A DNA stretch of 64,000 nt from an uncultured Clostridia bacterium (lineage in GTDB: Bacteria > Bacillota > Clostridia > UBA1381), in assembly GCA_944391225.1 (NCBI GenBank), contig CALXSS010000005.1:1-64000 (forward strand). Reading direction: 5' to 3'. A program made the position numbers and the translations under genes. This document shows, in pieces, positions 4,463 through 27,666 of the stretch. The stretch's first letter is position 1, and every line of letters starts with the position of its first letter. The notes beneath the pieces are model-generated. The model did no database searches, had not been told where the DNA came from, and saw only the letters and a program-made list of their open reading frames with translations.

Positions 4463-7400
4463 TTACATCAGACTTTCAAACGAACCAAGGTTGAATACCC
4501 TTTCAAACCCCTGCGCTCTCGCGATCCGCACAGCTTCAGCCGCCCTTGTTCCTCCAGCGCACATGAATATCAAGGCAGTATTTTTGTCAAAGCCGTCCAG
4601 CTCTGCCTCAAGAACATCAAGAGGTATATTCACAGTATCCGGCGCGCAGACCGACGCGTATTCCTCAGCGCTGCGCACGTCTATTGCAATTGCTCCGGCT
4701 GCTATCATTACCGACGCTTCTTCAGCTGCGACCGCGTCCGCGCCCACGTCTGAAAGAGCATAGCTCAGCTCTGTATCTGCTCCGCGCAATATCAATCTGT
4801 CGTTTTCGATACTCAGCTCTTTTATGTCATGATCGCTAAGCTTGATAAGGCGGCTGCATTTTTCGCACTCGGTGAATATCATTACATATCCGCCGTCACA
4901 GCCCGCGTATAATCTGCCGTTATATTCAGCGATGGAGTTTACTACAAGTTCTTCTCCGCTGTAGCTTTTATCCCTTTCCGCAAAGACAGCCGTGTCAAGA
5001 CTTACTCCCGTGTCGTCCGCCGCCGCTCTCTTTATGCTTGTGCTGCCGTCAGCTCCGCGTACAAGATATGTATCAACGCCCAGCCATTCTGTTTCCTGCA
5101 ATATTACAGGCTCTGCAGCAGGATCAGCCTGTCCATAATATTCCACTATTATTGCATAGAGATTTTTATTGCTGCTGCCTCCATACACATATACCGGCTG
5201 TGAAACATCATCAGTTTCGGCTGAAAATGATACATCCGCACCTGAACCGTAGCCGATAGCGAGCTTTTTGCCGCCCTGCACTATGTACATATCGCGTCCT
5301 TCCGCGCCGTTGAACACTACAGTCACGCGGCAGCGCCCCTCAGGTGTAAAATAAAGGCTTCTCTTTGCTTCACCGCCCGTTCCTGCCTGCCATGACGCTG
5401 TGAACTCATATTCATACACATTGTCGTTAACATCTGTATACTCGTATTTTGTACCCTTGTTCGCTATGACCCAGCCGCCGTAGCCTGAAAGACCGTTCAC
5501 TTCAGTATATGCGTCGCCGTCATTTCCGCCGCTGAGCACAGTGTAGTCGTATTCTCCGCTGTTGAGCGAATATACAACCATCCTGCTCGGCTCAGGCGTC
5601 TTAAAGCTGTATTCATACGCTGCGCCAAGCGGCAGCATGCTCCGGGTATCGTTCCATATGAATATCTTTATTTTCTCGCCTTCCTGAGCTTCAGTCAGAA
5701 TATCGTATGCTCCCGCGCCGCTCACATCTGTCATATACATACGTTTTACAGAGCTGTCATCATCGTATACTGCCGCTGTCATAACAGCCTGAGACGCCTC
5801 CGCGCTGCCGCGCCAGCCAAGCTGAACATTTATGCTCCCATCGACCGTGCCGCTCACCTTTTCTATAACATACGGCTGTTCATCATCATTTTCATAATAG
5901 TTGAGACGGAAATAATCAAGATTTATACCGTTGGTCTGTATATACACATCAGTGCAGCCGTATTCATCAAGCGCGCCGCTCTCGGAAAGCGTATAAATAT
6001 TGTCACGGTAAAGCTCAGTTTCTGTTTCCTCCCATGTGCTCCAGCCGCCGGTGGACGGAACGCTTACAGATGCTATAAGCTTATCCTTATCGCTGCTCTT
6101 GTCAGCGCTGATGTATATGCTGCCCGCATTCTTTCCCGCGTATCTTACAATAAGGTTTTCAAGCTCCGTAAGCTTTACAGACCTGTACAGCATCCATGAG
6201 CTCGACGTGCTTCCGGCGTTGCCGCCGCTTGCTCCGCTCTGCTTATCAGTCAGATCCGCGCCTCCGCCGTCATCAGCATATTCAGCCTCGATCTGCATAT
6301 TTATATATATTATCTGACGTCCGCATATACCGGCGTCTGTATTTGCCGCAATTATCTCTACAATGCCGTTTCCGTATACTGTTAGCTCGCCTGTATCCGG
6401 GTCTATTTCGGCTGCCTGTCTTGACGAGCTGTCAAGCTTTTTCAGCTGCCAGCTTATGCCGCTGACCTCCGCGCCGCCCTCGTCATAAGCCTTAAGCTGT
6501 ATCCCTGTATACGGCGCGTCGGTCCTGACCGTGCCTGACGCGCCCGAAAACGGCTCTATTCCGCCCTCGCGGTAATCAATAACTCCGTTATACAGATATT
6601 CCTTATTTTCCGAGCCTATGCTGTATCCGACCTCAAGAGCGTCCATCTCCACAGCCTTAAGCTCTGCTATATAGCTTTTTAGAAGCTGCTCAAGCTCCGT
6701 TTTTGTCATCGCTGCGTCTATCGCCGAAACTCCCTCATTGTATATGCCGCTAAGCTTGTTCCTGTTTTCCTCTGAATACGCATTCGCCGGCAAAGAATTA
6801 TAAACCGCCTCAAGCTCCGCTTTTGCCGCGCTTACCTCGTCAGCTCCCGGCTTTATTTCAAGCACAGTTACTACAGGGAACGAGTCAGTCTTTTTAACTC
6901 CGTCAACAGTGACCTCGGCAGTTATAACAGCCGTGCCCTCCTTTACAGACGGTGTTACAACACCGTTCTCGTCCACTATCGCCACTGATGCGTCCGAGCT
7001 GCTGTATCTTACCGCTGCATTTTTCAGATCAACGAGCCGCTCATCAGACATCACCGCCGAAAGTCCCGCGTCTATTGAGTTCAGCGCTGTCAGGTCAGTA
7101 CCGTCCTCGCAGATATATCCTTTAAGCGTTATGCCGTCGGGAATGGCTCTTACTGTTTTAAGCTCCGAGCTTAGTGTTCCGCTCACCTTCACTTTACCTG
7201 TGAAAGCAGTGTCAGCAGCGTTTTTGCCTATGCTTATTATATACTCGCCCTCCGGCACAACAAGCTTCTGCTCCGCCTCATCAAACAGGCTCATATCGCT
7301 TATATCCAGCTCAAATCCAACCGTTTTTGTCTCGCCCGGCTCAAGTGATATCTTTTCAAATCCTTTGAGTTGTTTTTTAGGTATATTGCCCTCTCCTGCG

Positions 7401-10270
7401 CCGGGGTGCGATACATACAGCTGCACTACCTCCATGCCCGCAGCTTCGCCCGCATTCTTCACATTAACGGACGCTTTTACAGTTCCGTTCGCCTCAGCCT
7501 GATCTGTTGATACGGTAAAATCAGAATATTCAAAATCAGTATAGCTCAGACCATAGCCGAAAGGATATACCGGCTCTCCCGTATAATACTGATATGTTCT
7601 GCCGGGGCTTGCCGCTGTGCTTTGCAGGTCATAATCAGTATAATAACCGGTTATTCCCTCAACCGTTTTCTTTGATGTGTTTGCAAGCTCCAGCTTTGAA
7701 AGGTCGTCGGCTTTATACCATGTTGTAGATAATCTGCCCGAAGGATTGACCTGACCGGTAAGCGTCTTTCCGAACGCTGTTCCCTGTGTTTGACCGTTGT
7801 AAGATGTCCAAAGTATAGCCTTGACCTTATCCGCGAACGGCTCTACATCTATCTGACCTACCGTTTGCATCGCAACAACAGTCTTTTCCGGATAAGCGTC
7901 GGCTATAGCCTGAACATGCGACTGGTGTTCCGGCAGAGCTATGGAGGCTCTGTCATTCGATTCCTTGGAATCCGCTGTGGTCGTTCCCGCATAAGCAATT
8001 ATGATATCTGCCGAATCAAGCTGCTGCCGATAGTTTTCTACTGAAAACTCCTTTTCTATCGGCATTATTGAAATATATATATCAGCAATGCCGCCATATC
8101 CGCCGTCCGCGCCTGTGTACGCGCCTGTAAAGGTTTCAAAGCTGTCGGCGCCGCCTGTGGCGTCCCCCTCAATTATAGCCACTGACGGACCGTTGGCGCT
8201 GCCGTAATTCATAACTATATCCCCGCCGAGAGAGCCGGACGGTGTTGATACCTCCGCTTCCACCGACACAACATCAGTAAGCTCTACATTTCTGATCACA
8301 GCTGACGCTGTTGGCGTAACGCCGCAGAGCGTGCCGTTTTCCAAACTCATTCCCGAAACATTTTCTGCCTTGCTAATATCTATTGTCTTTTTTGAACCGT
8401 CTGATCTCACAAGAACTATGCTCTTGATATTCATTATCTCCGCGTCATCTGCGACAGAGCCGAGATAACTGAGGACCGCTGACGGATTTGTTTTTGAAAG
8501 CTCCTCTTTAAGCCCCTCGTACGGCGTCACTGTTTTTTCAGGCTCGCCCGAGTAATCACCGAGCACGACCTCTCCTGCATACGGTCCGACAATAACTATA
8601 TCCTGAGCCGTTTGCGAAAGCGGTAATATATCATCCTCGTTTTTGAGCAGCACCCATGATTCTTCCGCTGCCGCCTCTGCCGCCGCGACATGCTCGTCAG
8701 TTTCAAGCTGATCCTTGGTTATCTCCGAATAGCTTACCCCCTCGTCAAACTCGCCTGTTCTGAACCTCTGCAAGAACAGATTATAAACATTCGTTTCAAG
8801 CTCCTGCTCAGAGATATAGCCCTGCTTTACCATTTCAACGCCGTTTGTTGTAGCCGCGCAGCCTCCGCCAAGATAACATTCTATATCCATTCCCGCCAAA
8901 AACGGCTGAGCTATTGCCTGCGCGTCAGGCACGTCAGCAGAGCCGAGCATTCCCTGCTTGTACGCACTGTTCTTTATCATATCCTCGCCAGCTCCGCAGT
9001 CACTTGTAACATAACCGTCAAAGCCCCAGTTCCGTCTTAACAGATCTGTGAGCAGATAACTGTTGGCAGATGAAGGCAGATAATTATACAGCAGCTCGCC
9101 GTTCCTGTAAAGCGTTGTCGCATTATAGGACGACATGACCGATGCCGGATGCGCCTTTTCCACTACGTTCTGGAACACCTTTGCATAGTAATTTCTCATA
9201 TTAAACTCGCTGAGCACAGATGTTCCCCCGCGGCGGTTTTTCTCGTTATTATTAGCTGCGAAATGCTTCAATGTAGATATTGTTTTAATATATTTCTCGT
9301 CATCTCCCTGCATTCCGTTGACAAACTCCGACGCCAGCTCGCCCGTGAGATACGGATCCTCGCCGAACGTCTCCTCATTTCTTCCCCAGCGCGGATCCCT
9401 TGCCATATTTATTGTCGGGCTCCAGTATGAAAGATCCGTGACTGGATTCTTTGCCCTTGCCTCTGTCGAGGTTATGTCCGCTATATTATAGATAAGCTCG
9501 CTATTCCACGTGTTAGACATTGAAAGAGGCGCGGGAAAGCTTGTCGCCTTGCCCTGTCTTGCAACGCCGTGCAGAGCCTCGCGCCAGTAATTGTACTCCG
9601 ATACGCCGAGCCTCTCTATTGCAGCCGCTCTGTATCCTATCTGAGATACCTTTTCTTCAAGCGTCATTCTTGAGACAAGATCGGCAGCGCGCTCCTCAAA
9701 CGTGCGCGATGTATCAAGATACACCGGCAGTTCAGCTCCGCCTCCATCTGTATAGAACCGTACATAAACATAATTGCCGCAGTATGCGTTTCCGCCCTCC
9801 GTTTTTATATTAAGCGTTATGTTTCCCGCCGCCTTATTAGTTATGAGCTCCGTGCTGAAAACACTGTAGTTTGTCCAGCCTCCGGTATATACCGAATCAA
9901 ATACCGCTATATCTGTATCCCCCGCCTTTATACTGATCGACGAATTATTCTCATTTGCGGCGTATATTTCTATACGGTCATAATCGGTATTGTTGAGCTC
10001 CATGTACGAAAGAGTCAGCACAGCGATCCCCTCATCGCTTGTTCTCAGGTTATCCGGGCGCAGTACACCGCCGTTTTCGTCATCAGTTATGATCTCGCCC
10101 TTATTCCCTTTTACAGTTATGGAATCCGCGCCGAAATTCAAAATACTTGAACCGTCGCTCATAACATTTATAGTTCCGTAATCAGCTCCGTCTTGCGCGA
10201 GCGCCTGAGGGAACGTTCCTAATACCACAGCGGCAGCTGCTGCAAATGATACTATTTTTTCTAATTTCAT
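4463..10270 (-). CDS. Giant secreted GH3 glycosidase with C-terminal rhodanese domain
   Basis: This 1935-residue protein has a signal peptide (MKLEKIVSFAAAAAVVLG, cut near residue 25) and an N-terminal CBM6-like region (about 45-175). The GH3 catalytic barrel (about 185-510) has the nucleophile Asp424 in GYVTSDCGAG, a form typical of beta-xylosidase or arabinofuranosidase-like GH3. The GH3 C-domain (about 535-910) is interrupted near 615-740 by a beta-sandwich insert. A fibronectin-like domain, Big-like domains, a helical linker (about 1140-1200) and a CBM6-like domain follow. The last about 105 residues are a rhodanese domain with active-site loop CAGGTR (Cys1904). It should act on xylose- or arabinose-containing side chains outside the cell; the role of a secreted rhodanese is unknown. 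RBS AAGGAGG supports the start. An AraC gene is divergent. Confidence 0.9.
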   Translation of the reverse strand: MKLEKIVSFAAAAAVVLGTFPQALAQDGADYGTINVMSDGSSILNFGADSITVKGNKGEIITDDENGGVLRPDNLRTSDEGIAVLTLSYMELNNTDYDRIEIYAANENNSSISIKAGDTDIAVFDSVYTGGWTNYSVFSTELITNKAAGNITLNIKTEGGNAYCGNYVYVRFYTDGGGAELPVYLDTSRTFEERAADLVSRMTLEEKVSQIGYRAAAIERLGVSEYNYWREALHGVARQGKATSFPAPLSMSNTWNSELIYNIADITSTEARAKNPVTDLSYWSPTINMARDPRWGRNEETFGEDPYLTGELASEFVNGMQGDDEKYIKTISTLKHFAANNNEKNRRGGTSVLSEFNMRNYYAKVFQNVVEKAHPASVMSSYNATTLYRNGELLYNYLPSSANSYLLTDLLRRNWGFDGYVTSDCGAGEDMIKNSAYKQGMLGSADVPDAQAIAQPFLAGMDIECYLGGGCAATTNGVEMVKQGYISEQELETNVYNLFLQRFRTGEFDEGVSYSEITKDQLETDEHVAAAEAAAEESWVLLKNEDDILPLSQTAQDIVIVGPYAGEVVLGDYSGEPEKTVTPYEGLKEELSKTNPSAVLSYLGSVADDAEIMNIKSIVLVRSDGSKKTIDISKAENVSGMSLENGTLCGVTPTASAVIRNVELTDVVSVEAEVSTPSGSLGGDIVMNYGSANGPSVAIIEGDATGGADSFETFTGAYTGADGGYGGIADIYISIMPIEKEFSVENYRQQLDSADIIIAYAGTTTADSKESNDRASIALPEHQSHVQAIADAYPEKTVVAMQTVGQIDVEPFADKVKAILWTSYNGQTQGTAFGKTLTGQVNPSGRLSTTWYKADDLSKLELANTSKKTVEGITGYYTDYDLQSTAASPGRTYQYYTGEPVYPFGYGLSYTDFEYSDFTVSTDQAEANGTVKASVNVKNAGEAAGMEVVQLYVSHPGAGEGNIPKKQLKGFEKISLEPGETKTVGFELDISDMSLFDEAEQKLVVPEGEYIISIGKNAADTAFTGKVKVSGTLSSELKTVRAIPDGITLKGYICEDGTDLTALNSIDAGLSAVMSDERLVDLKNAAVRYSSSDASVAIVDENGVVTPSVKEGTAVITAEVTVDGVKKTDSFPVVTVLEIKPGADEVSAAKAELEAVYNSLPANAYSEENRNKLSGIYNEGVSAIDAAMTKTELEQLLKSYIAELKAVEMDALEVGYSIGSENKEYLYNGVIDYREGGIEPFSGASGTVRTDAPYTGIQLKAYDEGGAEVSGISWQLKKLDSSSRQAAEIDPDTGELTVYGNGIVEIIAANTDAGICGRQIIYINMQIEAEYADDGGGADLTDKQSGASGGNAGSTSSSWMLYRSVKLTELENLIVRYAGKNAGSIYISADKSSDKDKLIASVSVPSTGGWSTWEETETELYRDNIYTLSESGALDEYGCTDVYIQTNGINLDYFRLNYYENDDEQPYVIEKVSGTVDGSINVQLGWRGSAEASQAVMTAAVYDDDSSVKRMYMTDVSGAGAYDILTEAQEGEKIKIFIWNDTRSMLPLGAAYEYSFKTPEPSRMVVYSLNSGEYDYTVLSGGNDGDAYTEVNGLSGYGGWVIANKGTKYEYTDVNDNVYEYEFTASWQAGTGGEAKRSLYFTPEGRCRVTVVFNGAEGRDMYIVQGGKKLAIGYGSGADVSFSAETDDVSQPVYVYGGSSNKNLYAIIVEYYGQADPAAEPVILQETEWLGVDTYLVRGADGSTSIKRAAADDTGVSLDTAVFAERDKSYSGEELVVNSIAEYNGRLYAGCDGGYVMIFTECEKCSRLIKLSDHDIKELSIENDRLILRGADTELSYALSDVGADAVAAEEASVMIAAGAIAIDVRSAEEYASVCAPDTVNIPLDVLEAELDGFDKNTALIFMCAGGTRAAEAVRIARAQGFERVFNLGSFESLM

Positions 10271-10480
10271 TATTGTCCTCCTTATCCTATTATGCAGAAA
10301 ACCGTTACACTATCTGAATATACTGCTTATTTCATAAGCGCGTGCCGGCTGCGCTATTTTTCTTATACTTGCATTTTACCACGATATGTGTTAGAATTAA
10401 AGAAATAAAAGAAAAGCAATTAGCCAAAAATTGCACAAATGATATTCTGTTTAAATTTGTAAAGTTAAAGGAGTGATAGC

Positions 10481-11287
10481 ATGATACCTTTTTATGAGCT
10501 CCAGCCATCTGATCTGAATATAATATACAATAAGCGCGAGCTGAATTTCAGACCGCATATACATAAATATGTTGAAATACTATATGTTTTTAAAGGCGGA
10601 CAGCATCTTGAAATAAACAGCAAAAAGTTTCTGCTTGACGAGGGCGACGCCGCTATAATTTTTCCCGATCACCTGCACAGCTTTTCAAGACCGGTACAGC
10701 GAGAAGCGGCAGTTATATTCCTTATATGCACGCCGGAAATTTTCGGCTCACTCTTTACAAGCCTAAATGAGTGCACGGCAGATGTGCCAATTGTAAAAAA
10801 AGAAGACATACCGGAAAGAGCCGTGTATGCCTTCAATAATCTCGACAAAACAAACAGCTTTGCCGAAAACCTTGGATGGGCGTTGATAATAATGTCGTCA
10901 TTGCTTGAGCATATAAAGCTGCGCAAAACACATCGCATGCCTGTCAATGACATTATGCCTAAGCTTATTAAATTTATTGATGAGAATTTTACGCGTCCGC
11001 TGAGCCTTGACATGCTTGCAAATGAATTTCATGTCAGCAAATACTATATATCCCATATATTTTCAAACAGGATAAACATGAATTTCAGGAATTATATAGG
11101 CACACTGCGCGCCGAATACGCCGCCACCCTGATACGCACGACAGGCGATAACATGACAGCGATAAGCGATAAAGCAGGCTTTGAAAGCCAGCGAACCTTT
11201 AATCGTATTTTTAAAGCTATATACGGTATTTCCCCGCTTGAATACAAATCAAACATCAACGCGTATCTCAAATCACAAAATCAATAA
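10481..11287 (+). CDS. AraC-family regulator, divergent to the GH3 gene
   Basis: A 268-residue protein with an N-terminal cupin sensor domain (RPHIHKYVEILYVFKGG) and a C-terminal AraC DNA-binding domain (LSLDMLANEFHVSKYYISH; RTFNRIFKAIYGISPLEYK). The RBS AAAGGAG directly precedes ATG 10481. The gene is 210 bp from the GH3 start on the opposite strand and is likely its local regulator. It shares domain layout but only modest sequence with the AraC proteins at 3479 and 26854. Its 3' end overlaps the last codons of a decayed gene on the minus strand. Confidence 0.9.
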   Translation: MIPFYELQPSDLNIIYNKRELNFRPHIHKYVEILYVFKGGQHLEINSKKFLLDEGDAAIIFPDHLHSFSRPVQREAAVIFLICTPEIFGSLFTSLNECTADVPIVKKEDIPERAVYAFNNLDKTNSFAENLGWALIIMSSLLEHIKLRKTHRMPVNDIMPKLIKFIDENFTRPLSLDMLANEFHVSKYYISHIFSNRINMNFRNYIGTLRAEYAATLIRTTGDNMTAISDKAGFESQRTFNRIFKAIYGISPLEYKSNINAYLKSQNQ

Positions 11288-20344: not shown

Positions 20345-23300
20345 TCAGTTTGAGGCAACTGCCGTCTTAACGGTGTGTACACCGTTTATCTTTCCTGATA
20401 CTCTTACTGTATAATCACCGTCAAACTGCTGTGACCATGACGCTTCATAGCCGTTTGCAATATCGCGTGACATATCAAAGCAGAGTATATCACTGTCGCT
20501 GATATTTGTAACATCCGCCTCAGCCTTTGTCACAAGCACCGCTATCTCAGAGCCATTGTCAAACTCAGGAATAGCTGTTAGCTTTACGCCGCTTGCCGTC
20601 TTTTCAGCCGAAAGAGCGCCGTCCGGTTCTGCCGCCGTGTCCGCAGAAAGCTTTGTAACAGCGTATATCTTCAAGGTATCCGTTGTCTTGTCAAAGCCTT
20701 CCGGCAGCGCGAATCCGAGCGATATCTCGTTTTCGCCCATTCTGATAGCCGAGCCGTTGACCTGCTTAGTTGATACTGATGTGATCGCTCCGTTTTCATC
20801 AAACGTTTCCGCTACAAATGTCAGCTCATTTGCATAGTAGAAGTTCTTTGTTACAAAGAGCTTTACAAGCCTTGATCCATCCTCGCTCACACCAAGCTTA
20901 TCTATAGTGATAATATCTGATGATGTGATTGTAAACTTAGCGCTTGCATATTTACCTGATTTTGGCGAAATCGCTCTAACATATACATCCTGAGGTTCTG
21001 CAGCATTATCTATAGTTATCAGTCCTGTGCTGTCAATAGCTATAAGAGAATCTTCGAGCGGCTCGTTATCCTCAGAATCATAGAGCATAAATTCAAGCAT
21101 ATCAGATGCCGGTTTTTTCATTTCAAGAGAATTCCAGTATAGAGTCGCCGATGCCTGCACCTTTCCTCCCGGGAATACTGTTGCCACATCTGTGCTTACG
21201 CTTATATCAGTAGGAACAGGGCTGAGTATCCTCAGATTGTCAAAGCTCGTTCCGGCATTGATATTTACAAAAGCCGTAGGCTCGTCATTTCTCTGATTGA
21301 CGTCCTTTATGAGCTTTCTGTTTATGCGGTTTCCATTATCGTCATATTCCTCAAATATGATATGAGCATATGACTCCATCTTTCTTATTATAGTGATATG
21401 ATACCACTTATTCGGGCTTATCTCACCATAATTAGTGTAGCTGCTGCTGCCTGTCTGAACTGCAAGCTGTCCGTTATGATAAACCACGCAGGTGTTGAGC
21501 TTACCGTTCTTTGCCGGCTGGAAGCCCGCTCCCTCCTGATTGAACTTAATATCCATCTCTATAACAAGATCTGAAGCTGTTTCAGTAATGTTTCCTGTAG
21601 TGAGACCTGATTCTGCTCTGAATGCGCTTGTTCCGTCAGGCGCTCCCGACTCGCGGACTGCATTTGTAAGCTCGCCCTCACAGTTGTCCGCATAGAGAAG
21701 CTTATCCTTATCACCGTCCTCATTTCCCTCAAGAGCATCGCTTGACTTGATGTGAACCGCTACAGAACCTCTTACCGCATCTGTAGGATCAGCCGCACGA
21801 ACCGTTATATCCTGCGATATAGCCTTTGTATCTACGCTGAGAACTCCATTTTCAACCTTGATCCAATTAAGCTCATCTCCAAGGCTGCGCATATTGTCCT
21901 TGTCGCATACGTACCAGATAAGGTCGTTCTCTGAAAGTGATACTGGTTCTCCGTTCTTTGACGCCGCCGCGCTTATTGTGAGCGGCTCGTCGGCGCTTAC
22001 ATATTCGCGCGCCGCACTTAGTGTCAGTGTATCAAACTTAACGCCGGAAATATCAACAGCCTTAACGCTTATCTTCTTTGACGCGCTTATTCCGCTCTCA
22101 GCTGTCGCGCGTACATATATGTTCTGCTCTGCCGCGTCTATTCCCACGCTTAGAACTCCTGCTGAGTCTATTGTTATAGAAGCATCGTTTAGCGGCGCGC
22201 TGTTATCGGAGTTGTATACCTCCCATGTAACAGCCGGCTTTGTTATATACGCTCCCTGCCTTGTAGCGTCATATGTAAACTGCATTACATTTCCTGCTGT
22301 AATCTCACTGCTGTTGGAGCTTACGCTCAAAGCATCCGCGCCAAGCATTGTTATCTTGAGATTGTCAACGCTCGTTCCCATATGCACATTCCAATGGCTT
22401 GCGCCGTTATTTGTATTGGCTGAAAGGTTTCTCTGATTTACGTTCTCGAATGTTCCGAGATGCTTCATCTCAGAACCCTCATAGCCGTAGACTATCATAT
22501 TCGTAGCCGCGTCAGGAGCGCTGAAACGTCCTATAAGCACAATATGATACCACTTGTCAGGATCTATCTCAAGATAATTTTCAAATTTATCACCGCCGGT
22601 CTGTATTGAGAGCATCGGTTTTCCGTCAACATCGTGGCGTCTTACGCAAGTACCGAGTTTCTTGTCTCCGTTATCGTAAGGAGTTATGCCGGAGCCGTCA
22701 GTATTGAACCTTACGTCAGCCTCCCACATGATGTCCGCCTTTGAATTTTCTGAAAGTCCGCCGAAGCAGCAGCCCGCTGCGGATTTTCCTTCATAGCTCT
22801 CATTTGTAAGATATTTTGTTCCGTCAGGCGATGTGTCCTCGCTGAGCACAAGATTTGCTGCCGCTGTGTCACAGCTGTCGAAAAATGCCACTGTATCATA
22901 GTTATCGCTGCCGGGTTCCGGAGTAGTTTCCGGTTCCTGTGTTTCCTGCGGTTCATTTTCTTCAAGCTTTATTGCCTCACAAAGAGCATATTTCATATCT
23001 GAACTCCAAAGCATCGCTTTTGCGGTAGAAGATGAGAGTATCTCATCACTCACATCCACAGATGTCTTTGCTCCCGCTTCAATATTTACTTCTGTGAGTA
23101 CAACTTTCGCTAACTCTCCGTTCTCGCTGTATCCAGCCATTATGAGATTAGCGCTTTCAAGCTTGCTGCCGCTTGATACCGTAACCTTATTATCACTAAA
23201 TTCGAGCGCCGGAGTTTCTTCACTCATAAGCGATATAGCTTCATCATTGACAGTTATTGCTAATGTTTTTGACTCAGCATCAGTGCTGAACGATACACCA

Positions 23301-26300
23301 GGAAGCTGTCCAAGCACTGCTGAAAGCTCTGCCATAAGAGCTGTTCCGTCCGAGTTAGGAGCCACTCCGAAGTTTGTAAGGTTTCTTTCTCCGTTAATGA
23401 ATATATCCGTTGCTACATTTACTATATCAACCGTATTTTCATCAGTGTTTATTGTGATGTACGGAAGCTCGCCGTATGCGTATGACGGTATACTTCCCTC
23501 CGTGTTATATGAATATGTAAAGTCGCCGCCTGCCGCTTTTACAGCGTCAAGTATAGGATTGACCTCGCCTACCACACCTGTGTTGCTGTCGGGCTTGTAA
23601 GCCTTATCTGTAAAGCTTACCTCCTTGCCGTTTACAGTTACAGTATAGTAATCCTTTTCATCCTCGTTTACCTTTACAACATTGCCTGTTTCCTCGTTCC
23701 AGTCAGCTGTGAATACGCTGCCAAGGCTCTTAAGCTCCGGAGCAGTCTCCTGTGCCGGAGGATCCGGAACCTCGCCCTGCTCAAACGAACGCTGCAGCTG
23801 TGTTGTAAGACCGCCGTCAAGCTCAAGCGGAGTTGTTTCTAAGGTAATATCTACCGGCTGCATACCCTCTGCCGATGCTGTAAGAGTTATCGTTCCCGAG
23901 GTCTGAGTTGAGCGTATAAACACTCTGTTCACGCCGCATTCAGCATAAACATAATCCTTGTGATTTACTATTCTCTCATCTACACCGCTGTTGTAGCCGC
24001 CGAGGAATACGCCGTTTCCGTTAAGAGTAAAGTTGATCTTTCTCTCATCAAGCGGACAAACGTTTCCGTCCTCATCCACTATCTCCACATCAACATATGC
24101 TATATCCGAACCATCCGCGATAAGTCCGTCTGGTCCTGTTACAGGCGTAAGCTTTATTCTTGCCGGTTCGCCTGCTGTTACGATCTCGTCATTCGCTATG
24201 ACCTCATCAAGCTCATTATAAGCCTTTGCGCTGACACTGCCCGACTGGGTAACGTCTATATTGTCAAACGCATAGATATAATTATCGTCCGCCTTTGTAT
24301 CCGTTCCAACAAGCTCGCCGTTAACGTAAAGCTCTACCTTTGCAACATCCTCCGAGCCTATTACATAAACAGTTTTCTTTGTCGGATCTCTCTGGAGCAT
24401 TGTGCCGTTAGGCTCCCAATATGTTCCGTTAAACGTCTTATCCTCATACCAGTAGTTACCGTTTTCGGTATCACCCTCTATATATTCAGGATAGTTCCAG
24501 TGTCCGAGTATATGCAAAGCCGGAGTATCCGACTGCGCTGCCTGTATTGCATAGAATGATTCCTTCTTTATTCTGACCGGATCTACTCTTCCTGATGTTC
24601 TCGCATTCTCCACGCCGCAGTTACGCACATGCATGTTAGAATCGGACCATACCATCATAGCCGCGCCTGAATAATAATTCTTGCCTGTACCGCCTACACG
24701 GTTGTTATAATAATATGAATATCCGTCACCGGAGTTGAACATGGTGCGCGAGAAATCCTCCTGAGTCTGATCCCATATATCGTATCCGTCTGTTTTTGAA
24801 CCGTCTGCTCCAAGCCACTTGTTCACATAATCATAGTATGGCGGTGAATAGTCATCCCATACTCTTCGCGGAGCCTCGTTTCTGTGATACTCCGTTTCAA
24901 GCATCGGTATATAGTTGCCTGTAGACTGCATAGCAGCATATGCGTTCTCATCGTGGCGGAAAATCATAGTGCCTGCCCATTCAGCCTCTTTTATCTGATC
25001 TGGACTGTTGATGGTACGGCAGCCCATAAATCTGTATCCGTTCGGATCAAGATTATTTTTCAGCGTTGTCATCTCACGCATATGGTCAGCTGTGATCTGA
25101 TTGTTTCCTGCCTCATAGAATATTACCGACGGGCTGTTTCTGTAATATATAATAACGTCGCGCATAGCCTCTACACGCTGATCCCACTGTCTGCCTGAAA
25201 CATCGCCTTCTTTATCTCCTGCCGGCGCTACTGATATAACACCGTACTTATCGCCTGAACGTATAGCGTTCGGCTTAGGCGCAACGTGCATCCAGCGGAT
25301 AAAGTTCGCGTTTGATTCCTTTATGAGCTGCATGTCAACATCTTCAAGCCAATCATTTGCAACTCCTATTGCAGCCCATTCATTAGTTGAACGCTGCGCG
25401 TAACCCTTGAGATATGTCGGAGTTCCGTTTATCTGCAAGCCCTTATCCTTGTCATATACTACCTCGCGGAAGCCTGTAACAGTTTCCTGAACGTCTATTA
25501 CTTCCTCGCCGTCCTTGAGGACTGTGTATACAGTATAAAGATACGGCGATACGTCGCTCCAGAAATGAAGCTCTGAAACGTTCGCGCTTGCATTTATCTT
25601 TGTTACCTCTACAGTGTCAAGCGATACGCTGTTGTTTTCCTGACCCTCGCCTGCTTCATTATAAGCATTTTCAGGTACTGTTGTGAGGAACTGATCTGTT
25701 TCTGTATCCATTGCCGGAAACACTGTTTCAGTCTTTGAGAAGGTCGATACAAGTATTCCGTCGCTGTCTACAACGTTTACCTCAAGCGTTATATCGCGCT
25801 CTTCATCTGTTTCGTTTCTTACCTCAGCCTCAACATTTATATCAGCAGAATTTTCTCTGAAATCAAAGTTGCTGCCGTATATGTAATTACCGGTTGTTTT
25901 AAGGTTATTATACAGCGGAAGCGTCTGATATATCTTGTTCTTAGCATAAAGTATAACATTTCCCGTCAGTCCGCCCTGAACCTCGTTAAAGTCCTTTGTG
26001 TTCCACTGATAAAAAGATCCGGACAGGTCTCCCGGCTCGTGTCCCGGTATCGTTTCTTGTGTTTCAAACGAGCTTCCTCTTGACGAAGCGTTATCTGTAG
26101 CAACAGCTATAACATTATCGCCGCCGTAATTGACGAAATCGGTAATATCAAAGCCTATAGGCGCAATGCCTGCCTCATAGTATCCTACCATCTCGCCGTT
26201 TACATACAGATACAGCGACTGACGCACAGCCTCAAACTCAAGTATGAGCTTTTTGCCGTTATCGCTCTCAGGTATTGAGATGTGCTTACGGTAGAACATA

Positions 26301-26653
26301 AAGCCCCTGTACAGGCTCGCCTCGCCCGCATCGCTACCGGCTCCGTCAAACGAGTCCTCCGCGTTGACCGCATGAGGAACGCTGACTGTTTCCCAATCCG
26401 TATCGTCATAATCCACATCATAGAACTGCTTTCCGTTCTTAGCTATTGCAGCCGAGGCGGCAGCAAGAGGGAATGTAGCAGAATCGTCGGCACGCTTGTA
26501 TTTCCAGTCGATGTTCATGTTGTATGTAACTGCCGGACTGTTGGGTACGACATATTCTGTCCCCTCCTCAGCAGCGTTGACCGTCACAACACATGATAGC
26601 AACAACTGCAAAACAATCATAATCGACAATAACATGCAGCCTTTACGTTTCAT
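20345..26653 (-). CDS. Giant secreted GH2-family glycosidase-like protein
   Basis: A 2102-residue secreted protein starting at ATG 26653 (RBS GAGAGG); the signal peptide is MKRKGCMLLSIMIVLQLLLS. GH2 sugar-binding, immunoglobulin-like and TIM-barrel domains fill about residues 30-680. The barrel has IFYEAGNNQI where family members have GNE: Asn518 stands at the acid/base position, while ETEYH (Glu588) fits the nucleophile. Then come a GH2 C-terminal Ig-like domain, a copper-amine-oxidase-N-like domain (about 990-1125), and two tandem units of a laminin-G-like plus Ig-like domain (about 1250-1540 and 1640-1930). Expected substrate is a beta-linked sugar in pectin side chains, but activity is uncertain because of Asn518. 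It is divergent to an AraC regulator and ends at repeat copy C. Confidence 0.85.
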   Translation of the reverse strand: MKRKGCMLLSIMIVLQLLLSCVVTVNAAEEGTEYVVPNSPAVTYNMNIDWKYKRADDSATFPLAAASAAIAKNGKQFYDVDYDDTDWETVSVPHAVNAEDSFDGAGSDAGEASLYRGFMFYRKHISIPESDNGKKLILEFEAVRQSLYLYVNGEMVGYYEAGIAPIGFDITDFVNYGGDNVIAVATDNASSRGSSFETQETIPGHEPGDLSGSFYQWNTKDFNEVQGGLTGNVILYAKNKIYQTLPLYNNLKTTGNYIYGSNFDFRENSADINVEAEVRNETDEERDITLEVNVVDSDGILVSTFSKTETVFPAMDTETDQFLTTVPENAYNEAGEGQENNSVSLDTVEVTKINASANVSELHFWSDVSPYLYTVYTVLKDGEEVIDVQETVTGFREVVYDKDKGLQINGTPTYLKGYAQRSTNEWAAIGVANDWLEDVDMQLIKESNANFIRWMHVAPKPNAIRSGDKYGVISVAPAGDKEGDVSGRQWDQRVEAMRDVIIYYRNSPSVIFYEAGNNQITADHMREMTTLKNNLDPNGYRFMGCRTINSPDQIKEAEWAGTMIFRHDENAYAAMQSTGNYIPMLETEYHRNEAPRRVWDDYSPPYYDYVNKWLGADGSKTDGYDIWDQTQEDFSRTMFNSGDGYSYYYNNRVGGTGKNYYSGAAMMVWSDSNMHVRNCGVENARTSGRVDPVRIKKESFYAIQAAQSDTPALHILGHWNYPEYIEGDTENGNYWYEDKTFNGTYWEPNGTMLQRDPTKKTVYVIGSEDVAKVELYVNGELVGTDTKADDNYIYAFDNIDVTQSGSVSAKAYNELDEVIANDEIVTAGEPARIKLTPVTGPDGLIADGSDIAYVDVEIVDEDGNVCPLDERKINFTLNGNGVFLGGYNSGVDERIVNHKDYVYAECGVNRVFIRSTQTSGTITLTASAEGMQPVDITLETTPLELDGGLTTQLQRSFEQGEVPDPPAQETAPELKSLGSVFTADWNEETGNVVKVNEDEKDYYTVTVNGKEVSFTDKAYKPDSNTGVVGEVNPILDAVKAAGGDFTYSYNTEGSIPSYAYGELPYITINTDENTVDIVNVATDIFINGERNLTNFGVAPNSDGTALMAELSAVLGQLPGVSFSTDAESKTLAITVNDEAISLMSEETPALEFSDNKVTVSSGSKLESANLIMAGYSENGELAKVVLTEVNIEAGAKTSVDVSDEILSSSTAKAMLWSSDMKYALCEAIKLEENEPQETQEPETTPEPGSDNYDTVAFFDSCDTAAANLVLSEDTSPDGTKYLTNESYEGKSAAGCCFGGLSENSKADIMWEADVRFNTDGSGITPYDNGDKKLGTCVRRHDVDGKPMLSIQTGGDKFENYLEIDPDKWYHIVLIGRFSAPDAATNMIVYGYEGSEMKHLGTFENVNQRNLSANTNNGASHWNVHMGTSVDNLKITMLGADALSVSSNSSEITAGNVMQFTYDATRQGAYITKPAVTWEVYNSDNSAPLNDASITIDSAGVLSVGIDAAEQNIYVRATAESGISASKKISVKAVDISGVKFDTLTLSAAREYVSADEPLTISAAASKNGEPVSLSENDLIWYVCDKDNMRSLGDELNWIKVENGVLSVDTKAISQDITVRAADPTDAVRGSVAVHIKSSDALEGNEDGDKDKLLYADNCEGELTNAVRESGAPDGTSAFRAESGLTTGNITETASDLVIEMDIKFNQEGAGFQPAKNGKLNTCVVYHNGQLAVQTGSSSYTNYGEISPNKWYHITIIRKMESYAHIIFEEYDDNGNRINRKLIKDVNQRNDEPTAFVNINAGTSFDNLRILSPVPTDISVSTDVATVFPGGKVQASATLYWNSLEMKKPASDMLEFMLYDSEDNEPLEDSLIAIDSTGLITIDNAAEPQDVYVRAISPKSGKYASAKFTITSSDIITIDKLGVSEDGSRLVKLFVTKNFYYANELTFVAETFDENGAITSVSTKQVNGSAIRMGENEISLGFALPEGFDKTTDTLKIYAVTKLSADTAAEPDGALSAEKTASGVKLTAIPEFDNGSEIAVLVTKAEADVTNISDSDILCFDMSRDIANGYEASWSQQFDGDYTVRVSGKINGVHTVKTAVASN

Positions 26654-26761
26654 AGTATTTACCTCTCTTTCTTTGACCTTTTTAATAAATTGATCTCTAT
26701 TCAACATAATAATCTTAACATAATTCCACAAAAAAATAAATTGTCATTATTGTTATTTGTA

Positions 26762-26790: not shown

Positions 26791-26853
26791 ATAAACAATC
26801 AAAAAAATAATTATGCAGTTTTCATGCAAATCTTATTATAAAAGGTGATATAT

Positions 26854-27666
26854 ATGGGCGTATCATTTAATTCAAAAAACTTTATGCTCAGCTCCTCGGA
26901 GGCTGTACCGACAAAGCTGAACACACATATACATAAATACTATGAATTTCTGATGTTTGAAAAGGGAGATGCCTCCTACATAATCGGAAGCAGTATATAT
27001 AAGCTAAATCCGGGAGATATAACCGTTACGAAACCAAATGTAATGCATACAATTTCATTCTCAAGTGATGCACTGTACAAAAGAACATTCATCCAGCTTT
27101 CGCCGCGTCTTTTAACGCGCATACCGCGCAGTCTTATAGACCATCTGCTTGATAAGCGTGACGGAGAATATGACGTTATCACCAACGAAGCTGCAAGGAA
27201 ACGTCATCTTCACAACTATTTCAGGCGCGGAACATCACTTCTTGAAGATCTCTGCGACCAGAACATATTTTTTGCGGAGCTGCTGTTTCAAAAGTTTGCA
27301 GTATGCATAAACGAGGTATTAAAAACACTTCCGGGCACAGTTTACACAAAGGTTGAAAATCCTGCTATACGCAGCATGAAAGAATATCTGGACCAAAATT
27401 ACCGAAAAGACTTTTCACTTGAGAAGATGGCAGCGGACTTCTACGTAAGCAAATATCACATATGCCACCTTTTCAAGGAAGAAACGGGTATAACTGTAAA
27501 CGATTATCTTGCACTGCGGCGCATTTCCGGAGTACGCGAGCTTGTGAGAGAAAACGTATCCATAACCGAGGCATTCAAGCAATGCGGTTTCAACGACTAT
27601 TCAAACTTTTACAGGACAGTAAAAAAATATACCGGTGAAAAGCCGTCTGATTTTTATGGTGAATAA
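26854..27666 (+). CDS. AraC-family regulator, divergent to the GH2 gene
   Basis: A 270-residue protein with an N-terminal cupin domain (LNTHIHKYYEFLMFEKGDAS, about residues 18-100) and a C-terminal AraC helix-turn-helix domain (FSLEKMAADFYVSKYHICHL; YSNFYRTVKKYTGEKPSDFY). AAAGG (26841-26845) is correctly spaced from ATG 26854; a GTG three codons earlier lies within the RBS. It is divergently paired with the GH2 gene and is its likely local activator. Confidence 0.9.
   Translation: MGVSFNSKNFMLSSSEAVPTKLNTHIHKYYEFLMFEKGDASYIIGSSIYKLNPGDITVTKPNVMHTISFSSDALYKRTFIQLSPRLLTRIPRSLIDHLLDKRDGEYDVITNEAARKRHLHNYFRRGTSLLEDLCDQNIFFAELLFQKFAVCINEVLKTLPGTVYTKVENPAIRSMKEYLDQNYRKDFSLEKMAADFYVSKYHICHLFKEETGITVNDYLALRRISGVRELVRENVSITEAFKQCGFNDYSNFYRTVKKYTGEKPSDFYGE

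Follow-up and report, generated by a model that had tools for sequence, protein, structure and literature searches.

A secreted family GH3 protein of an uncultured Clostridia bacterium ends in a conserved four-cysteine module of about 215–217 C-terminal residues. Judged from its sequence, this tail is probably sulfur-handling, and it looks like an extracytoplasmic partner protein of GH3 in fused form, that is, a dedicated helper and not an accident of one genome. The protein is encoded in a window of 64,000 nucleotides, the whole stretch of DNA analysed here, which lies on one contig of a genome of 2.63 Mb (81% complete). Its open reading frame of 1935 amino acids (positions 4463–10270, minus strand, as for all features of the protein given below) is unbroken and, according to the frame and Pfam, comprises GH3, Fn3-like, Big (Ig-like), CBM6, a three-blade propeller piece and rhodanese. 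A signal peptide (MKLEKIVSFAAAAAVVLGTFPQALAQ, 10193–10270) was recognised by inspection of the sequence, and residues 1849–1931 match the Pfam Rhodanese model PF00581 with 37.6 bits (cut-off 22.2). The original prediction of a secreted GH3 glycosidase with a rhodanese end and an intact Cys1904 in a CAGGTR loop was thus confirmed. The rhodanese domain itself, which had been assigned the last ~105 residues, is smaller and spans about 90 (residues ~1846–1935, 4466–4735, based on Pfam and fold match), with the active-site loop C1904-AGGTR (MCAGGTRA) at 4544–4561. The small beta domain proposed to precede it does contain the CEKC motif, C1802-E-K-C1805 (TECEKCSR), but consists of three propeller blades (residues ~1719–1845, 4736–5116) and includes a third invariant cysteine, C1791 (4898–4900). 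The codons of the CEKC motif, at 4856–4867, lie outside the span 4463–4800 given originally.

An AlphaFold model of the tail based on 11 sequences was confident (pLDDT 91.6, pTM 0.83) and shows ten strands forming three propeller-like blades, followed by the rhodanese domain. The first part matches propeller blades in Foldseek and VIA-align, and the alpha/beta fold of the rhodanese part is supported by VIA-align Z-scores of up to 15.6 (rmsd 1.6 over 93 residues), with persulfide reductase and CoA-disulfide reductase rhodanese domains among its structural neighbours. An alignment of 36 tails has no more than about 13 invariant columns out of ~217; four of them hold the cysteines C1791, C1802, C1805 and C1904 (C72, C83, C86 and C185 of the alignment). 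The C-x10-C-x2-C spacing of the propeller cysteines never varies, nor do Asp and Arg in the DVR motif, while the six-residue C-x4-R loop has its Cys in all 36 tails and its Arg in 34, the other two having Lys. A six-residue loop is typical of sulfurtransferase-type rhodaneses, whereas phosphatase-type rhodanese folds have seven residues at this place. Hence, sulfane-sulfur chemistry is likelier than phosphatase chemistry for the tail. The invariant CxxC suggests a resolving pair, even though the tail has no thioredoxin fold. Comparison of two close species gave a dN/dS of ~0.10 for the tail (GH3 part, 0.03; middle of the protein, 0.08), and, within the limits of these small counts, the tail appears to be constrained.

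With the single-domain rhodaneses GlpE, PspE and TSTD1 the tail shares the fold (Z about 13–15), the DVR motif and the six-residue C-x4-R loop, whereas in the window protein the rhodanese forms the C-terminus of an exported GH3 and follows a propeller piece with the invariant CxxC. CoA-disulfide reductase-RHD, NADH persulfide reductase and persulfide dioxygenase-rhodanese, which are among the best sequence and fold matches of the tail, also carry a C-terminal sulfur-handling rhodanese. These fusions act in sulfur redox chemistry in the cytoplasm and contain flavin or iron, whereas the window protein is a glycosidase that has no further redox domain. Alternatively, the three propeller cysteines, perhaps together with C1904, could bind a metal, with the rhodanese serving as a docking domain. 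The invariant spacing of the propeller cysteines would suit metal binding, and rhodanese folds do act as docking domains in other proteins. Nevertheless, the catalytic Cys is fully conserved here, as are Asp and Arg in the DVR motif, and since docking rhodaneses often lose this Cys, catalysis is favoured over docking. We therefore consider a metal-binding or structural role unlikely.

At least 36 sequences, which belong to several bacterial families, contain the tail, so that the objection of there being no other example anywhere falls away. Five other species of the window's genus carry it (genus search with the last 250 residues), as do 10 of the 70 genomes of the window's family, while the search did not find it in any other family of the same order, nor was a relative present in the viral contigs searched. 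In a class-wide sample, the tail is present in many genomes of a family that, judging by a contig match, is Monoglobaceae, relatives of the pectin degrader Monoglobus, usually with three such enzymes per genome. For the single-contig genome G240, Pfam confirmed three GH3 proteins that bear the tail, and contig CANRHV010000015.1 of an uncultured Monoglobus sp. carries the tail at a place that matches contig C15 of genome G323. The frame had been described as continuous, with no visible stop-loss join of two genes, and the same fusion in many independent assemblies rules out such a join as well as an assembly fault. Together with the dN/dS of the tail, this argues against chance. In the tail tree the window's family and Monoglobaceae are intermixed, and one copy of the window's family falls inside a Monoglobaceae group with strong support, which makes horizontal transfer of these genes likely. 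The window's tail forms a long branch in this tree, yet it has kept all four cysteines.

The window's genome has only a single copy of the tail, which excludes a general CAZyme tail in this genome. The expectation of a recurrent surface module on CAZymes was borne out in so far as the tail recurs as a unit, but it is tied to one GH3 lineage of the beta-xylosidase type. A GH3-domain search of the window's family (at least 60% identity) revealed this subfamily in nine genomes, each of which also carries the tail; in G014 the match covers a partial contig. Neither the tail nor this GH3 is present in 60 of the 70 genomes, and in G047, the tenth tail genome, the tail lies at a contig edge. Fisher's test for the co-occurrence gave p ~1.5e-10, which serves as a guide only, as the genomes are related. 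Four genomes contain a second GH3 paralogue without the tail. A divergent AraC-type regulator, encoded in the window at 10469–11284 on the plus strand, adjoins the tail-bearing GH3 gene in most of the loci whose flanks are long enough. In genome G005, the neighbour of the tail-bearing gene (L037:4650-10910) encodes a secreted protein of 2087 aa that has an LPNSG sorting signal at its C-terminus. Elsewhere in the window, an open frame of 2132 residues (20348–26743, minus strand), whose start resembles a signal sequence (...SIMIVLQLLLSCVVTVNAAEE), adjoins another AraC-type gene (26842–27663).

In four other, more distant families (f10, f24, f65 and f141) the module exists as a separate protein of about 430–530 residues, in which propeller repeats are followed by a CxxC and the rhodanese and which in most cases has a lipobox or signal sequence. 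According to Pfam, a giant GH3 gene lies directly beside the separate module in all five loci. In G014 a free, signal-bearing tail is encoded directly upstream of a GH3 gene and occupies the place that the end of the GH3-tail protein has in G032. Wherever the contig is long enough to tell, the module is thus fused to, or located beside, a GH3 of the beta-xylosidase type, and this pattern points to a partner of GH3. In the separate module of G114, an in-frame TGA (L125, ~4731) interrupts an otherwise intact gene; selenocysteine at a catalytic site was considered and rejected, as the codon takes an Arg position of the relatives, between propeller and rhodanese. Similar single stops occur in the otherwise intact GH3 gene of G015 (TAG at a Gln position, L036:12407-12409) and in a GH27 gene of G020 (at a Trp position, L082, ~2427). 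All three are nonsense changes or errors.

The model of the separate partner (me352334cd1d2, pLDDT 84) predicts a seven-bladed propeller with a rhodanese, which aligns to seven-bladed targets with Z-scores of 27–28 (rmsd 2.6–2.9 over ~265 residues). YCF48, itself a seven-bladed propeller, is among its best Foldseek matches; the separate partner differs from YCF48-like proteins in having the CxxC and the rhodanese and in adjoining GH3. YCF48 assists in photosystem II assembly. By analogy, the separate propeller-rhodanese protein might fold or oxidise GH3 during export as a maturation chaperone, with the fusion doing so in cis, and its position next to GH3 in the five loci would agree with this. 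However, propeller folds are widespread, equally good scores were obtained for WDR5 and virginiamycin B lyase, and the separate partner of G247 stays below the Pfam cut-off for YCF48 (PF14870; 12.9 bits versus 27). A chaperone function is accordingly quite unlikely in our opinion.

In Monoglobaceae, a signal peptide could not be recognised in some of the tail-bearing paralogues (L128:3995-9352, L131:4077-9236, L146 and L132:163-5283); in the last of these, from G340, the rhodanese part is missing. For this reason, the module is not strictly a surface module, as had been supposed, and a purely extracytoplasmic role fits poorly. The absence of a signal peptide also speaks against thiol attachment, in which mixed disulfides would tether the enzyme either to the cell surface or to partners, for instance to proteins combining S-layer homology (SLH) domains, CxxC and rhodanese. 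Such a protein is encoded in the window's genome (L080) and another one in G005, beside a glycosidase-like gene, and in the Pfam domain search the window protein itself showed neither a sortase signal nor an SLH domain. Still, attachment would not require invariance of the complete DVR and C-x4-R catalytic framework, and the majority of separate forms come with a lipobox or signal peptide of their own. The earlier suggestion of a thiol-based anchor or protein attachment module is not supported, as nothing shows anchoring, and we judge it improbable.

Other rhodanese proteins were noticed as well. L080:2185-3090 (contig C128 of the window's genome) and L042:5295-6101 encode proteins of ~270–300 aa with S-layer homology repeats, a C-terminal rhodanese and a shared CxTCVxH motif, and each gene overlaps with the end of a large gene whose product is secreted or glycosidase-like. 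In the window's family, about 20 genomes encode a GH27 alpha-galactosidase with a C-terminal rhodanese and no signal peptide (L054-L072, L077, L078 and L081, e.g. L081:743-2248, minus strand). Its loop reads C[AST]TGKR in most cases and it has no CxxC. It is a second, independent fusion of a rhodanese with a glycosidase.

The N- and C-terminal GH3 domains of the window protein (residues 231–495 at 8786–9580, and 7541–8653, the latter with an inserted beta domain and the acid/base motif ESNDR) exceed the Pfam cut-offs, and both the nucleophile Asp and the acid/base Glu are present. They are followed by the Fn3-like domain of GH3 (7220–7432) and a CBM6 (5903–6289). The nearest solved relatives are xylan 1,4-beta-xylosidases. 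GH3 membership holds, and the enzyme is putatively of the beta-xylosidase type; the NCBIfam equivalog cut-off for beta-xylosidases is missed (best score 489 bits, compared to 1250 for Xyl3A). The nucleophile D424 and the adjoining C425 (TSDCGAG, 8996–9001) align with D291-C292 of Trichoderma reesei Xyl3A (5a7m), and C465 (8876–8878) aligns with its C324, C292 and C324 presumably being the active-site disulfide pair of Xyl3A. Both cysteines were found in 11 of 11 aligned GH3s, including partners of separate modules. The solved enzymes 7vc6, 5a7m and XlnD (6q7i) share the catalytic domains, the nucleophile, the acid/base motif and the cysteine pair with the window protein; they have no tail, in contrast to the window protein, which adds CBM6 modules, propeller blades and the rhodanese. 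In GH3 beta-xylosidases, a disulfide faces the sugar at subsite −1 (PMC8913315).

This xylosidase affinity weakens the idea that the GH3 part could free cyanide from plant cyanogenic glycosides, which the rhodanese would convert to thiocyanate on site. Detoxification of cyanide is the classical function of rhodanese, the hosts appear to degrade plant fibre in the gut, and work on konzo (PMC8433213) has discussed beta-glucosidase genes of gut bacteria jointly with those for rhodanese. Yet this cyanide/thiosulfate chemistry would need neither the CxxC nor the third Cys, the −1 subsite cysteine pair of beta-xylosidases is in place, and the neighbours of the gene in the window are pectin and uronate genes. 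Cyanide detoxification hence seems a doubtful explanation.

Based on the conserved cysteines and the genetic linkage, a redox or persulfide role is the best reading, and the tail would most likely represent an extracytoplasmic thiol/sulfane-sulfur exchange module. That it is a fused GH3 partner working as a thiol/sulfur relay for the thiol state of GH3 is our tentative proposal, to which we give a little less than an even chance. The rhodanese cysteine might take up sulfane sulfur or exchange with disulfides, and the CxxC of the propeller might resolve the resulting persulfide or disulfide. Both could form a small relay through which the thiols of the GH3 enzyme stay in the proper state in a gut that is anoxic and rich in sulfide, with the propeller acting as a docking scaffold. 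As the most speculative step, the likeliest target would be the pair C425/C465 beside the nucleophile. The module might then set or repair the active-site disulfide of the xylosidase, in cis or in trans, and activity would follow the sulfide/persulfide redox state of the gut. We hold this extended version to be rather unlikely. An action on the pair is an attractive and testable proposal, but the two cysteines are also conserved where there is no tail, both in GH3 paralogues of these genomes and in ordinary GH3 beta-xylosidases, which speaks against it. Also speaking against a relay, a DsbD/CcdA homologue, which could export reducing power, was matched in only five of nine genomes checked, and the invariant cysteines could be metal ligands instead.

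Every single part of the protein belongs to an otherwise known family. A search of open-access literature turned up no paper that links a rhodanese module to a secreted glycosidase, and this absence is no proof of novelty. Annotators may recognise separate propeller-rhodanese proteins as partners of GH3 enzymes, and the fused-or-adjacent pattern renders control by thiols or sulfur directly testable. If the proposed chemistry is right, thiol/sulfane-sulfur control would constitute a new layer in the breakdown of plant fibre by gut Clostridia.
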